DNA of 64,000 bases. Source: Stigmatella aurantiaca (GTDB lineage: Bacteria; Myxococcota; Myxococcia; Myxococcales; Myxococcaceae). Position numbers and translations under genes: made by a program. The DNA lies in NCBI RefSeq assembly GCF_900109545.1, contig NZ_FOAP01000011.1, positions 1 through 64,000 on the forward strand, in the 5' to 3' direction. This document shows, one piece after another, positions 51,761 to 64,000 of the stretch. The notes under the pieces were generated by a model. The model was not told where the DNA came from. It searched no databases and saw only the letters and a list, made by a program, of their open reading frames with translations. Positions within the stretch are counted from its first letter, which is position 1. Each line of letters starts with the position of its first letter.

Positions 51761-54700
51761 TCAACGCGGGGGTTCTTCGAGAAGAACGTGGACGTTGGTC
51801 CCACTGAAGCCGAATGCGCTCACCCCTGCAATGCGCCTCTCATCTCCGCGCGGTAGCCAAGCCACCGGGGTGTCGGCCACCCGTACAGGGAACCGCTCCC
51901 AGGCGATGTGCGGGTTGGGCTTGCGGAAGTGCAGATTCGCCGGGACGGTCCCGTGCTGGAAGACAAGCGCTACCTTGATGAGGCTGGTAACGCCAGCGCA
52001 CGCCTCGGTATGGCCGATGTTGCCCTTGACCGCGCCCAGGAGAAGCGGCCGCGCGGGGTCGCGGCCCTCGCTCAGCACTTCACCCAGGGCATGGACCTCG
52101 ATGGGATCACCCAGGGGTGTGCCTGTCCCGTGCGTCTCGACATAGCCCACCTCAGCGGCCGGGACGCGTGCGTGAGCCAACGCCTGCTGGATCACCGCTC
52201 GCTGGGCGCGGCCGTTGGGCGCGGTCAGGCCATTGCTGCGCCCATCATGGTTGCTCGCCGAGCCGCGAATGAGCGCGTAGATGCGATCGCGATCCCTCAG
52301 GGCCGCGCCGAGGGGCTTGATGGCCACGACCGCGCAGCCTTCAGAGCGCACGAACCCATCCGCTGAAGCGTCGAAGGGCTTGCAGCGGCCATCCGGGGCC
52401 AGCGCATTCATGCGGCCCAGGGCCACGCCCGCGTTGGGCTCAAGGATCAGGTTGACCCCTCCGGCGAGCGCCATGTCGCACTCGCCCGCACGCACGCTCT
52501 GGCAGGCAAGGTGGACGGCCGCCAGGGAGGAGGAACAGGCGGTGTCCAGCGCGAGGCTAGGGCCGCTCAGGCCCAGGACATAGGAGATGCGCCCGGCGGC
52601 GATGCTGAAGACGTTCCCAATGCTCGAATAGGGGGTGATCCGGCTGAGGTCGTCCGAGTAAAGGGCCCGCGCCCCGTAATCGGAGAAGGACATGCCCATG
52701 AAGACACCGGTGCGGCTCCCCCGCAGGCTCAAGGGCGGGAGGCCACCGTCCTCCAGCGCCTCCCAGCTCACCTCGAGCAGCAAGCGCTGCTGCGGATCCA
52801 TCCCCTGCGCTTCGCGGGACGAGATCCCGAAAAAGGCCGCATCGAAGCCGTCAATGCCTTCCAGGAAACCACCCCAGCGGGGGACGACCAGCCCGGGCGT
52901 GTGACCCGCGCGTGCCTGAACCTCGTTCGCACGCCATCGATCCGCGGGCACTTCGCGGATGGCATCCACGCCATTCGACAGGAGCTCCCAGAACGCCGAG
53001 GGCGATGACGCGCCACCTGGCAGGCGGCACCCGATGCCGATGATGGCCATGGGTTCATCGCGAGCGATGGAGGGCCGGAGCCGGGGGGCGCGGTCCCTGG
53101 GCAACGTGCCGGAGCCCTCTCGGGAAGGGATGCGCAACTCACGCAGCATCCCCTCGGCGAGCTCTTCGATGGTCGGGTGCTCCCAGATAAACGTCACCGG
53201 AAGCGAGATGCCGCACATCGCCGCGAGGCGCTTCTGCAGCAGGACGGTGCTCAGGGAGTCCATCCCCAGGGTGCGCAGGGGCTCTCGCCGCGGCAGCGAC
53301 GCGCTGTCGCGCCGGAGCAGCGCCGCGAGCTCGCCGCGGATCCGCTCCTCGAGGAGTGCCCGCTGCTCTTCGAGAGGGAGAGAAGCCTGGAGCGCCTCGA
53401 GCACGCCGCCCGGCGCTGGCTCTGCAGGTGCACCAGTCGGCTGGACCTGGAGCTCGCTGTCGCGCAGGTCGACGACGATCGCCCCCACGTGCGTGTCGGC
53501 TTCCACGTAGCGGAGGGCCTCGCCTACCTCCGAGGCAGGGAAGGTCCGATCGAGCCGCGGCCGGTAGACGCCCCCCTCCGCGAGTTCTGCCACCTCGCGC
53601 AGCAAGGCGCTGACGAGCCGCGGGCGGCTGGACATCATTCCGTGCAGATCCACCAGGGTGAAGCTGAGCCCACGCAGGAAGGGCCTGAGCCCGAGCGTGT
53701 CGTCCGCCCGGGCGTCGCGCGTGTCCAGCTCGATGAATCGTCCCCCAGGCCGCAGGAGTTCCAGGTTCGCGGGGTGGAACGCTCCCCCTGGAGCATTCAG
53801 GAGTACATCGACTCCCTCGCCGCCCGTGTGCTGGCGCACCTCGTCTGCGAAGGTTGGCGAGCGGGGGGCCATCGCGCGCGAGGCACCCAGGGCGCGCAGG
53901 TGCTCGCGCGTGGCCTCGCTGCCTGCCGTGGCAAACACCTCCGCCCCGCGGTGACGGGCAGCTTGCAGCGCGGCCAGCCCCACTCCGTCGCTGGCCGCGT
54001 GGATAAGCAGGCGCTCTCCCCTCTGAAGCCCGGCAGCGTGCACCAGCGCGTAGTGAGCGAGCACGTGGGGCGCGGGAAGCGCCGCGGCCTCCTCCACCGT
54101 CAGGGTGCTCGGCTTGGATACGGCCAGCAGCTCGGGGACACACACATGACTAGCGAGGCAGCCAGGGAAGACGGTGATGACCTCGTCCCCCTCCTTGAAG
54201 CGGGTGACGCCTTCTCCGATGGCAGTGACCCGGCCACAGCACCCGCTGCCAGGCCCAGCGCTCCGCAGGACGTCTTGCAAGCCGAGGCCTGCCGCGAGGA
54301 TCTGGAGCCGGATCTCTCCCGGTCCCGGCTCCTGAGGCTTGGCGCGCCTCCAGGCCATGCTCTCGAACCCGCGCGAACCGTCACCTTCGAGGACGAAACA
54401 CCCTGCTCCCGGCCCCGCGCCCCCCAGGAGCTCGTCCTTGAGGATCTTCCCCAAGGGACTGCGCGGCAGCGCCTCGCGGAAGTCGAAGAGGCGCGGCACC
54501 TCATAGGCGGCCAACCGTCCCTGACAATGCCGCACGAGAGAGACCTCGTCGCAACCCTCCCCCGCCACGATCACGGCCTTGACCACCTGACCGAGCCCTG
54601 GCGCGTGGACCCCAAGGACGACGGCCTCGCGCACCAGGGGATGATCGAGCAGCACGGCCTCGACGTTCCTGGGGTCAACCTTGTAGCCACCGGTGTCAAT

Positions 54701-55942
54701 GAAGGTCTGCTTACGCCCGACGATGCGCAGGATGCCCTCCGGGCTCAGACAGCCCAGATCGCCGGTGCGGTAGCGGCCACCCGAGAACGCCGCGAGGGTC
54801 GCCTCGGGCTTGCCGTCGTAGCCATCAGGCGGCAGGACTGGGCTCGACACCAGGATGGCCCCCACCGCGCCCGGGGGGAGTTCCTGGCCCTGCTCGTCCA
54901 CGATCGAGACCTTGACGTTGTCGAGGCAAGCGCCCACCACATCGGGACGGAAGCTGCTGCCCGTGACGAGATTCGCCGCGATAGAGCCCGTCTCCGTCGA
55001 GCCGTAGAGCTGACGGATGGGGACGCCAAAACGTTCGAGGAAGCGCTGGTAGACCTCCAGGGGCAGCCGGTTGCCCGAGTTGAGGCTCCACCGGAGCGCA
55101 GGCAGGGTGGCTGGCAGTCCGGGCTCACGCGGTAGCTGCGCCAGGGCTTCATACTGGTGGGCCACGGCCGCGAGCACGCGCACCCCCTCGCGCTCGATCA
55201 ATGCCAGGGCCTCCTTACACCGGGCGGCGAAGGGCAGCTCCATCTGCTCGCCCCCCTCACTGCGGGGAGCCAGAAGGACCAGCGTGGCGCCAGCGCCCAC
55301 GGCGGCGAGCAGCCCATTGCCCAGACCATAGGAGTGATACAGCGGCACGAGGCACCCGACCGTGTCCTCAGGCCCCAGCGAGGCCGAGCGCACGAAGTTC
55401 ATGGCCTCGTAATGGAGGTTCTCCTGGGTGCGGCAGATGCGCTTCTTGTAGCCCTCCGAGCCCGACGTATAGAGGTAGAGGGCCCGGCCACCGTACTGCG
55501 CTCGAGAAAACTCGCCCGAGGTGTCCAAGCTGGCGCCGCCATCAGGGAGGGCGACGTCCGAGACGGCACGCACGGCCGCCTCCAGCCCGCAGCGAGCGAG
55601 GGCCTGCCGGCACCGCTCCGCCTGGGACTGCGTGGTCACGACGAGGCGCGGCCGGGCATCGGAGAAGTAGCGGACGAGGCCATCATCGGCGAGCTGAGGG
55701 CTCAGCGGCAGGATCACGCACCCACGCTTGGCCGCAGCGAAGAACGCCACGACGAACATGGGGTTGTTGTCCAGGACCAGGGACACGCAGTCCGAGCGCT
55801 CAAGGCCTGCAGTGGCGAACTCGGCGGCAAAGCCCTCGACGCCACGCAGCAGCCGGCCGTAGCTGATGCGCGTGGCGCCATAGACGAGCGCCGTGCTGCT
55901 GGGCGCCGCACGTGCCGCGCGGTGGAGGAGTTCGTAGAGCAT
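51761..55942 (-). CDS. PKS starter protein: acyl/CoA-ligase - enoylreductase - ACP - ketosynthase
   Basis: A 1393-residue type I PKS protein. Adenylation/ligase about 10-505: [10 protein letters not shown] (158-167), [14 protein letters not shown], and catalytic lysine in SPLGKILK (about 500). Enoylreductase about 515-855, NADPH loop [18 protein letters not shown] with LGMDSL (Ser about 894). Ketosynthase about 965-1393: TACSSS Cys1136, HGTGTP, NIGHTE. It ends at [11 protein letters not shown], with no KS-AT linker or AT. The order matches the loading part of rapamycin and FK506 synthases, where the ER reduces the activated acid. Last gene of the operon. Confidence 0.9.
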
Positions 55943-63229: not shown

Positions 63230-64000
63230 CTATTCCTCCCCTTCGAGCAGGTTCGTCAGGAGCCGCTGCTGTTCCGCATCGGACAAGCTCTCGATCGCAG
63301 CGAGGATCGCAGCCACCTTGTCTCCGCTCGCGGACAGGTCCAGGGCCGCGGTGGGCACTGCGGCCTTCGGAGCGGCGGACGGCTCGGCGGGCGTCTTCAG
63401 GACCTCGGCCCGAACGTAGCCGGCCAGGGCCCGGATACTCGGGTAGTCGAAGAGGAGCGTCGCGGGCAAGGTCACCCCAAGGAGCGCGCCGAGCCGGTTG
63501 CGCAGCTCCACCGCCATGAGTGAGTCCAGGCCCAACCGATCGAGCGGCTCGGCGGGATCGATGTAGAGGTCTTCGTCCAGATCGAGCACCCGGCGGATCT
63601 CGGCGGTGAACACCTCCTCCACCTGCTCCGGCGAGACAACCTGCGCGGCCCTGGCCGGCTGCGAGGCCACGGTCCGCTCTCTCACCTGCGCCAGGTGTGC
63701 CAGGAGCGGAGGCGCGTTCTGCGCGGCTCCTCCCAGGTAGCGGTTCCAATCGACCAGCATGACCCCCGCCTGTGCGATGCGGCCCGCGAGCAGGGCCTCC
63801 AGGGCCGCGATCCCCTCGTCCGGGCCGATGGCGTCGATGCCGCGGGCCTCGAGGGGAGTCAGGCGGCGGGCGGCATCTGCGGCGGCCATGCCGACCTCGC
63901 GCCAGATGCTCCAGTTGATGCTCAGGCCGGGCAGCCCCATGCCCCGGCGGTAGTGCATCAGGGCATCCAGGAAGGCGTTGGCCGCGGCGTAGTTGCCCTG
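63230..64000 (-). CDS. PKS protein, 3' part: KR C-terminus and ACP (continues past the window)
   Basis: The last 256 codons of a PKS gene whose start lies beyond the right edge. It opens inside a ketoreductase (QGNYAAANAFLDAL, holding the catalytic Tyr and Asn of the family) through INWSIWREVGMA, then an ACP with LGLDSLMAVELRN. The tail with SLSDAEQQRLLTNLLEGEE looks like a C-terminal docking segment. First visible gene of the operon; its stop is directly followed by the next start. Confidence 0.92.
   Translation of the reverse strand, partial: QGNYAAANAFLDALMHYRRGMGLPGLSINWSIWREVGMAAADAARRLTPLEARGIDAIGPDEGIAALEALLAGRIAQAGVMLVDWNRYLGGAAQNAPPLLAHLAQVRERTVASQPARAAQVVSPEQVEEVFTAEIRRVLDLDEDLYIDPAEPLDRLGLDSLMAVELRNRLGALLGVTLPATLLFDYPSIRALAGYVRAEVLKTPAEPSAAPKAAVPTAALDLSASGDKVAAILAAIESLSDAEQQRLLTNLLEGEE

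Follow-up and report, generated by a model that had tools for sequence, protein, structure and literature searches.

In the POP pathways that lead to jawsamycin and fuelimycin, a KS-AT-DH-ACP synthase has its enoyl chain modified by a HemN-like radical S-adenosylmethionine (SAM) enzyme, and the cluster motif Cx7CxxC is reported to be invariant in these cyclopropanases (C68, C76 and C79 in Jaw5) (PMC13389473). Only the POP-iPKS pathways are said to form more than two cyclopropanes within a single biomolecule, and their latest mining was limited to actinobacterial genomes and MIBiG (PMC13389473). HemN-like enzymes convert one SAM to a 5'-deoxyadenosyl radical and the methyl group of a second SAM to a methylene radical (PMC6050322). 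Here we describe a six-gene operon of the myxobacterium Stigmatella aurantiaca in which two polyketide synthases (PKS) are coupled to an enzyme of this kind, and which is probably a self-contained pathway to a cyclopropane-bearing fatty-acyl or polyketide product. The window is the 64,000-nucleotide stretch that opens contig NZ_FOAP01000011.1 (C11:1-64000) of the 9.37-Mb genome; the contig was read onward to 140 kb. The genome gives 11 MYXO-CTERM matches, a myxobacterial mark that was absent from all 14 control genomes.

The operon consists of six minus-strand genes that run from contig 69898 down to 51761 and so extend past the window end. They are transcribed in the order PKS-A, PKS-B, radical SAM enzyme, alpha/beta hydrolase, leucine-rich-repeat (LRR) protein and ligase-ER-ACP-KS protein. 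The features in the window are as follows.

63230 to 64000, minus strand: C-terminal KR/ACP end of PKS-A (full gene to contig 69898; 2222 aa, KS-AT-DH-ER-KR-ACP)
59138 to 63229, minus strand: PKS-B, 1363 aa, KS-AT-DH-ACP without KR by domain and motif reading
57726 to 59141, minus strand: HemN-like radical SAM enzyme, 471 aa, Cx7CxxC (C74, C82, C85), proposed cyclopropanase
56801 to 57715, minus strand: alpha/beta hydrolase, 304 aa, proposed chain-releasing thioesterase
55959 to 56810, minus strand: LRR protein, 283 aa, N-terminal block and repeats
51761 to 55942, minus strand: acyl ligase-ER-ACP-KS protein, 1393 aa, proposed starter-loading protein
49983 to 64000, no strand: in-window part of a genomic island missing from sister genome G038 (whole island contig 49983-70077)

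PKS-A and PKS-B abut, PKS-B overlaps the radical SAM gene by 4 bp and the hydrolase gene overlaps the LRR gene by 10 bp; gaps of 10 bp and 16 bp lie between the radical SAM and hydrolase genes and between the LRR and ligase genes, respectively. The start codons of the hydrolase (57715) and LRR (56810) genes were set by comparison with homologues. The six genes form a single operon and a self-contained unit. A sequence-only reading of the window had listed six genes with these domains on one strand, and all of them are present. It had counted four overlapping or abutting junctions, where there are three of five, and had put the rest at 10-16 bases apart. Its KR-ACP protein does carry both domains, which are merely the C-terminal end of a PKS-A that starts outside the window, and its CoA-ligase/ER starter protein has an ACP and a KS in addition to the two parts named.

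PKS-B and the radical SAM enzyme together correspond to the core of the POP-iPKS systems (jawsamycin jaw4-6, fuelimycin pfl1-4, and log1-4; PMC13389473). In both cases a KR-less KS-AT-DH-ACP synthase with a malonyl-type AT stands beside a HemN-like Cx7CxxC enzyme, and the core set has no methyltransferase. In PKS-B the KS cysteine, the DH motif HxxxGxxxxP and the malonyl-type AT motif (HAFH) are intact, the phosphopantetheine serine sits in a GM(S/N/T)SL context, and 43 aa separate the DH from the ACP, which leaves no room for a KR. There are also differences. The host is a myxobacterium rather than Streptomyces, a full KS-AT-DH-ER-KR-ACP synthase precedes in place of a stand-alone KR, an alpha/beta hydrolase is found where pfl and log have a hotdog thioesterase (Pfl4; jaw also has none), and the LRR and ligase-ER-ACP-KS proteins are additional. 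The KS lineage is also separate: the PKS-B KS pairs in the tree with the KS of the Nocardia PKS-B (100/99). Assignment of the operon to POP-iPKS was rejected because it lacks a stand-alone KR and a hotdog thioesterase and its KS falls outside the POP KS clade; by its gene content it is a relative that shares the predicted cyclopropanase and not a member. The sequence-only reading knew of no characterised pathway with this gene set. This holds for the exact set, which was not found in the literature (MIBiG lay outside the search), but not for its core, which has the close kin just described.

The cluster motif of the window enzyme is CIRTDPDRCGYC at residue 74. Cx7CxxC was found in 18 of 18 clade members and in none of eight outgroup sequences (HemN, HemW, HutW and STM4012), all of which have Cx3CxxC. 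In the tree, a 100/100 branch separates the 18 Cx7CxxC sequences from these outgroups, and the window enzyme is placed with its Nocardia counterpart in a subclade outside that of Streptomyces and Rhodobacter. Its identity to Streptomyces homologues is 49-54%, as against 24-29% to the outgroups. The best NCBIfam models are STM4012, HutW and HemN, with scores of 159.6, 155.7 and 136.2 bits against curated cut-offs of 380, 400 and 325; these sub-cut-off scores, together with the motif, rule out all three as its identity. A predicted model of the enzyme fits E. coli HemN (1olt) over its full length (TM 0.75/0.81), no other match being nearly as good, although sequence identity is 23-26%, the motif differs and the substrate context is another one. 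The positions aligned with HemN Y56, E145, Q172, R184 and D209, which we take to be SAM-binding residues in the HemN structure, are invariant. On motif and tree, the window enzyme is assigned to a clade of PKS-associated HemN-like enzymes that includes the POP-type cyclopropanases, and the earlier suggestion that radical chemistry is part of the biosynthesis is very probably correct.

The gene set is conserved beyond this genome. In the sister species G036 the six genes are present at 75-87% identity (78% for PKS-A) as one inverted block adjoining the same nonribosomal peptide synthetase (NRPS)-PKS cluster, and the dN/dS values between the two genomes (0.18-0.34 for the six genes) are read as purifying selection. 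In another phylum, Nocardia takedensis (NZ_BAGG01000050.1, L025) has the six genes in unchanged order, with arginine biosynthesis genes behind them; identity to the window proteins is 59% for the radical SAM enzyme, 40% for the hydrolase and 45% for the LRR protein. Its PKS-A lacks the start, where the contig ends, and the ligase is a separate protein of 498 aa without the ER-ACP-KS fusion. Conservation in G036 and the same order in N. takedensis argue that the gene set is not due to chance.

The proposed pathway would begin with activation of an acid starter by the ligase, and PKS-A and PKS-B would extend this starter using malonyl-CoA. PKS-B, with a DH and no KR, may form an enoyl thioester with the help of a KR from another protein. 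This in-trans KR probably comes from PKS-A, since PKS-B has no KR of its own and no stand-alone KR is found in the window or in the Nocardia operon. The radical SAM enzyme would target the alpha,beta-double bond of the ACP-bound chain: a first SAM would yield a 5'-deoxyadenosyl radical that takes a hydrogen from the methyl group of a second SAM, and the resulting SAM-methylene radical would add to the alkene and close the cyclopropane. The alpha/beta hydrolase would then free the product, and the LRR protein is probably, at a guess, a protein-binding scaffold. Cyclopropanation, the KR in trans, the order of steps and the roles of the hydrolase and the LRR protein are what we infer from the genes.

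In the hydrolase, the catalytic Ser lies in SHSSG and His276 is invariant. In Methylomirabilota (L027, L028, L030), a radical SAM enzyme of the same family is fused to an alpha/beta hydrolase, which supports one pathway for the two; the hydrolase part of the fusion is distant, at only 20-27% identity, and no PKS domains were found on the stretches read. The LRR protein, modelled as an LRR solenoid, has a conserved N-terminal block (ALRVY..FWGIDK.LG.TLEED). Its Nocardia orthologue is 45-46% identical, occupies the same operon position and shares this block besides the repeats, so that the LRR protein appears to be a conserved part of the operon rather than a passer-by. An LRR homologue encoded in G189, of a different myxobacterial family, has neither PKS nor radical SAM genes nearby. 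The closest solved relatives of the ligase are oxalyl-, feruloyl- and malonyl-CoA synthetases, a mixture that does not fix its substrate.

Several points weigh against a cyclopropane pathway. The proposal is drawn from the genes. Neither a stand-alone KR nor a hotdog-fold thioesterase is encoded among its six genes, the latter being replaced by the alpha/beta hydrolase, and the POP KS clade (100/100) does not contain the PKS-B KS. The characterised POP cyclopropanases belong to another radical SAM subclade than the window enzyme, the outgroup branches of that tree are long, and it does not include C10P, NosN, TbtI or the named Jaw5 and Pfl2. Finally, class C radical SAM enzymes can also methylate or transfer a methylene without ring closure (PMC6050322).

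This last point leads to the alternative that survives best, namely that the enzyme is a class C methylase or methylene transferase which adds a C1 unit, as a C-methyl or exomethylene group, and closes no cyclopropane. The HemN-like enzymes NosN, TbtI and ChuW transfer methylene or methyl groups, and C10P of the two-component cyclopropanase C10P/C10Q of CC-1065 closes its ring only with a methyltransferase partner (PMC6050322), of which the operon has none. C10P resembles the window enzyme as a HemN-like protein with the two-SAM methylene-radical mechanism predicted here, but it has the usual CxxxCxxC and it modifies a benzodipyrrole, not an acyl chain. The POP pathways, in contrast, yield cyclopropanes although their core set also has no methyltransferase (PMC13389473), and it is these enzymes that the window enzyme matches in motif and clade. 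We consider simple C1 transfer unlikely, and cyclopropanation remains the preferred reading.

A second alternative, that the six genes are tailoring or starter genes of the neighbouring NRPS-PKS cluster (contig 70314-119177) and have no pathway of their own, is very improbable. The operon does adjoin that cluster in both genomes that carry it, and no thioesterase follows the ACP at the end of the neighbour's last PKS protein, so that the free hydrolase could serve it. But a second sister genome (G038) has both the window's left flank and, at 93-96% identity, the terminal part of the neighbour cluster, and the operon site is empty: no radical SAM gene and nothing else of the operon lies between the two. 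The G036 operon is inverted as a single block, that of Nocardia is followed by arginine genes, and the operon holds loading, extension and release functions of its own. The earlier implication that the operon continues to the right did not hold: on the extended sequence it reaches no further than the start of PKS-A at 69898, and membership of the large PKS cluster to the right is ruled out by the G036 inversion and the G038 empty site.

Least credible is that the enzyme performs chemistry unrelated to the chain, such as haem or porphyrin metabolism, and is merely co-transcribed; STM4012, HutW and HemN are its top NCBIfam names, but their scores lie far under the cut-offs and most clade relatives with readable surroundings adjoin PKS or ACP genes.

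The inserted stretch, contig 49983-70077, adjoins at its right end a tRNA-Gly(GCC) at contig 70144-70218, and a second copy of this tRNA sequence, at 119507, marks the opposite end of the neighbour cluster. The latter, with about 10 KS domains, an NRPS protein and a zinc dehydrogenase-like protein, lies between the copies at 70144 and 119507. By this arrangement the operon island and the neighbour cluster both look to have arrived at the same tRNA as islands. At the left island end there was no target for an integrase search, and no tRNA-Gly direct repeat was found. Beside the island, the plus strand encodes a Ser/Thr kinase-AAA ATPase-GAF-histidine kinase fusion of 1833 aa (window 44474-49975), 82% identical in G038. 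Inside it, on the strand opposite the operon (window 50180-51690, plus strand), are a beta-propeller-repeat protein and an M23 peptidase, neither of which was seen next to the G036 operon. The AT domains of PKS-A and PKS-B (contig C11:59138-69898) are 98% identical to each other here and 100% in G036, while between the two genomes they are only 63% identical and the KS domains 88-89%; from these values the ATs look to have been replaced jointly or kept alike through gene conversion.

The N. takedensis operon was found by scanning one genome per species with a radical SAM alignment that included Deinococcus homologues; a single-sequence scan of genome contigs gave no match, and the alignment was required. 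Apart from G036, none of 195 genomes of the phylum gave the enzyme at E<=1e-60; around N. takedensis, 150 genomes of the genus, 395 of the class and 399 of the order gave no further case. Relatives were gathered from Acidobacteriia, Rhodobacter, Methylomirabilota, an Actinomycetota metagenome-assembled genome (MAG), Deinococcus plasmids and Streptomyces. Six of 393 Streptomyces genomes have a homologue, every one adjoining a KS-AT-DH-ACP synthase. A stand-alone KR lies beside it in five of these six loci (the KR match of the sixth is in an overlapping frame), and a hotdog acyl-CoA thioesterase, of the kind described for Pfl4, adjoins two. These loci are identified, by architecture alone, as the published POP arrangement. 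One of them (L046), whose radical SAM motif starts at C68, also encodes a TauD enzyme and an aminotransferase; in the light of nucleoside pathways, these two presumably fit a jawsamycin-like cluster. On the Deinococcus plasmids (L023:2724-22839, L024:3326-22822), a relative of the window enzyme lies in a PKS/NRPS cluster that also encodes a KAS III enzyme, a free ACP, a thioester reductase and an aminotransferase. In a Rhodobacter MAG (L051:1962-18509), a KS-AT-DH-ACP synthase and an NRPS that has a methyltransferase domain lie between two different radical SAM enzymes of the family.

More tentatively, and with somewhat less than even confidence, we suggest that myxobacteria and Nocardia share a PKS-cyclopropanase operon of a second kind that spans phyla: here a fully reducing PKS would provide, in trans, the KR for a KS-AT-DH-ACP synthase, and the LRR protein would organise the complex. 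The product may be multiply cyclopropanated, or mixed saturated and cyclopropane, unlike jawsamycin or fuelimycin. A literature search, mostly of open papers, found no myxobacterial radical SAM cyclopropanase and no such LRR-PKS pair. As this operon shows, the putative cyclopropanase family is much wider, reaching Myxococcota, Acidobacteriota, Methylomirabilota, Deinococcota, Alphaproteobacteria and Actinomycetota, and it can apparently be wired to other synthase architectures. The operon, of which the LRR protein is a conserved part, is a ready candidate both as a source of new cyclopropane lipids and for experiments on the programming of ring number and chain length.

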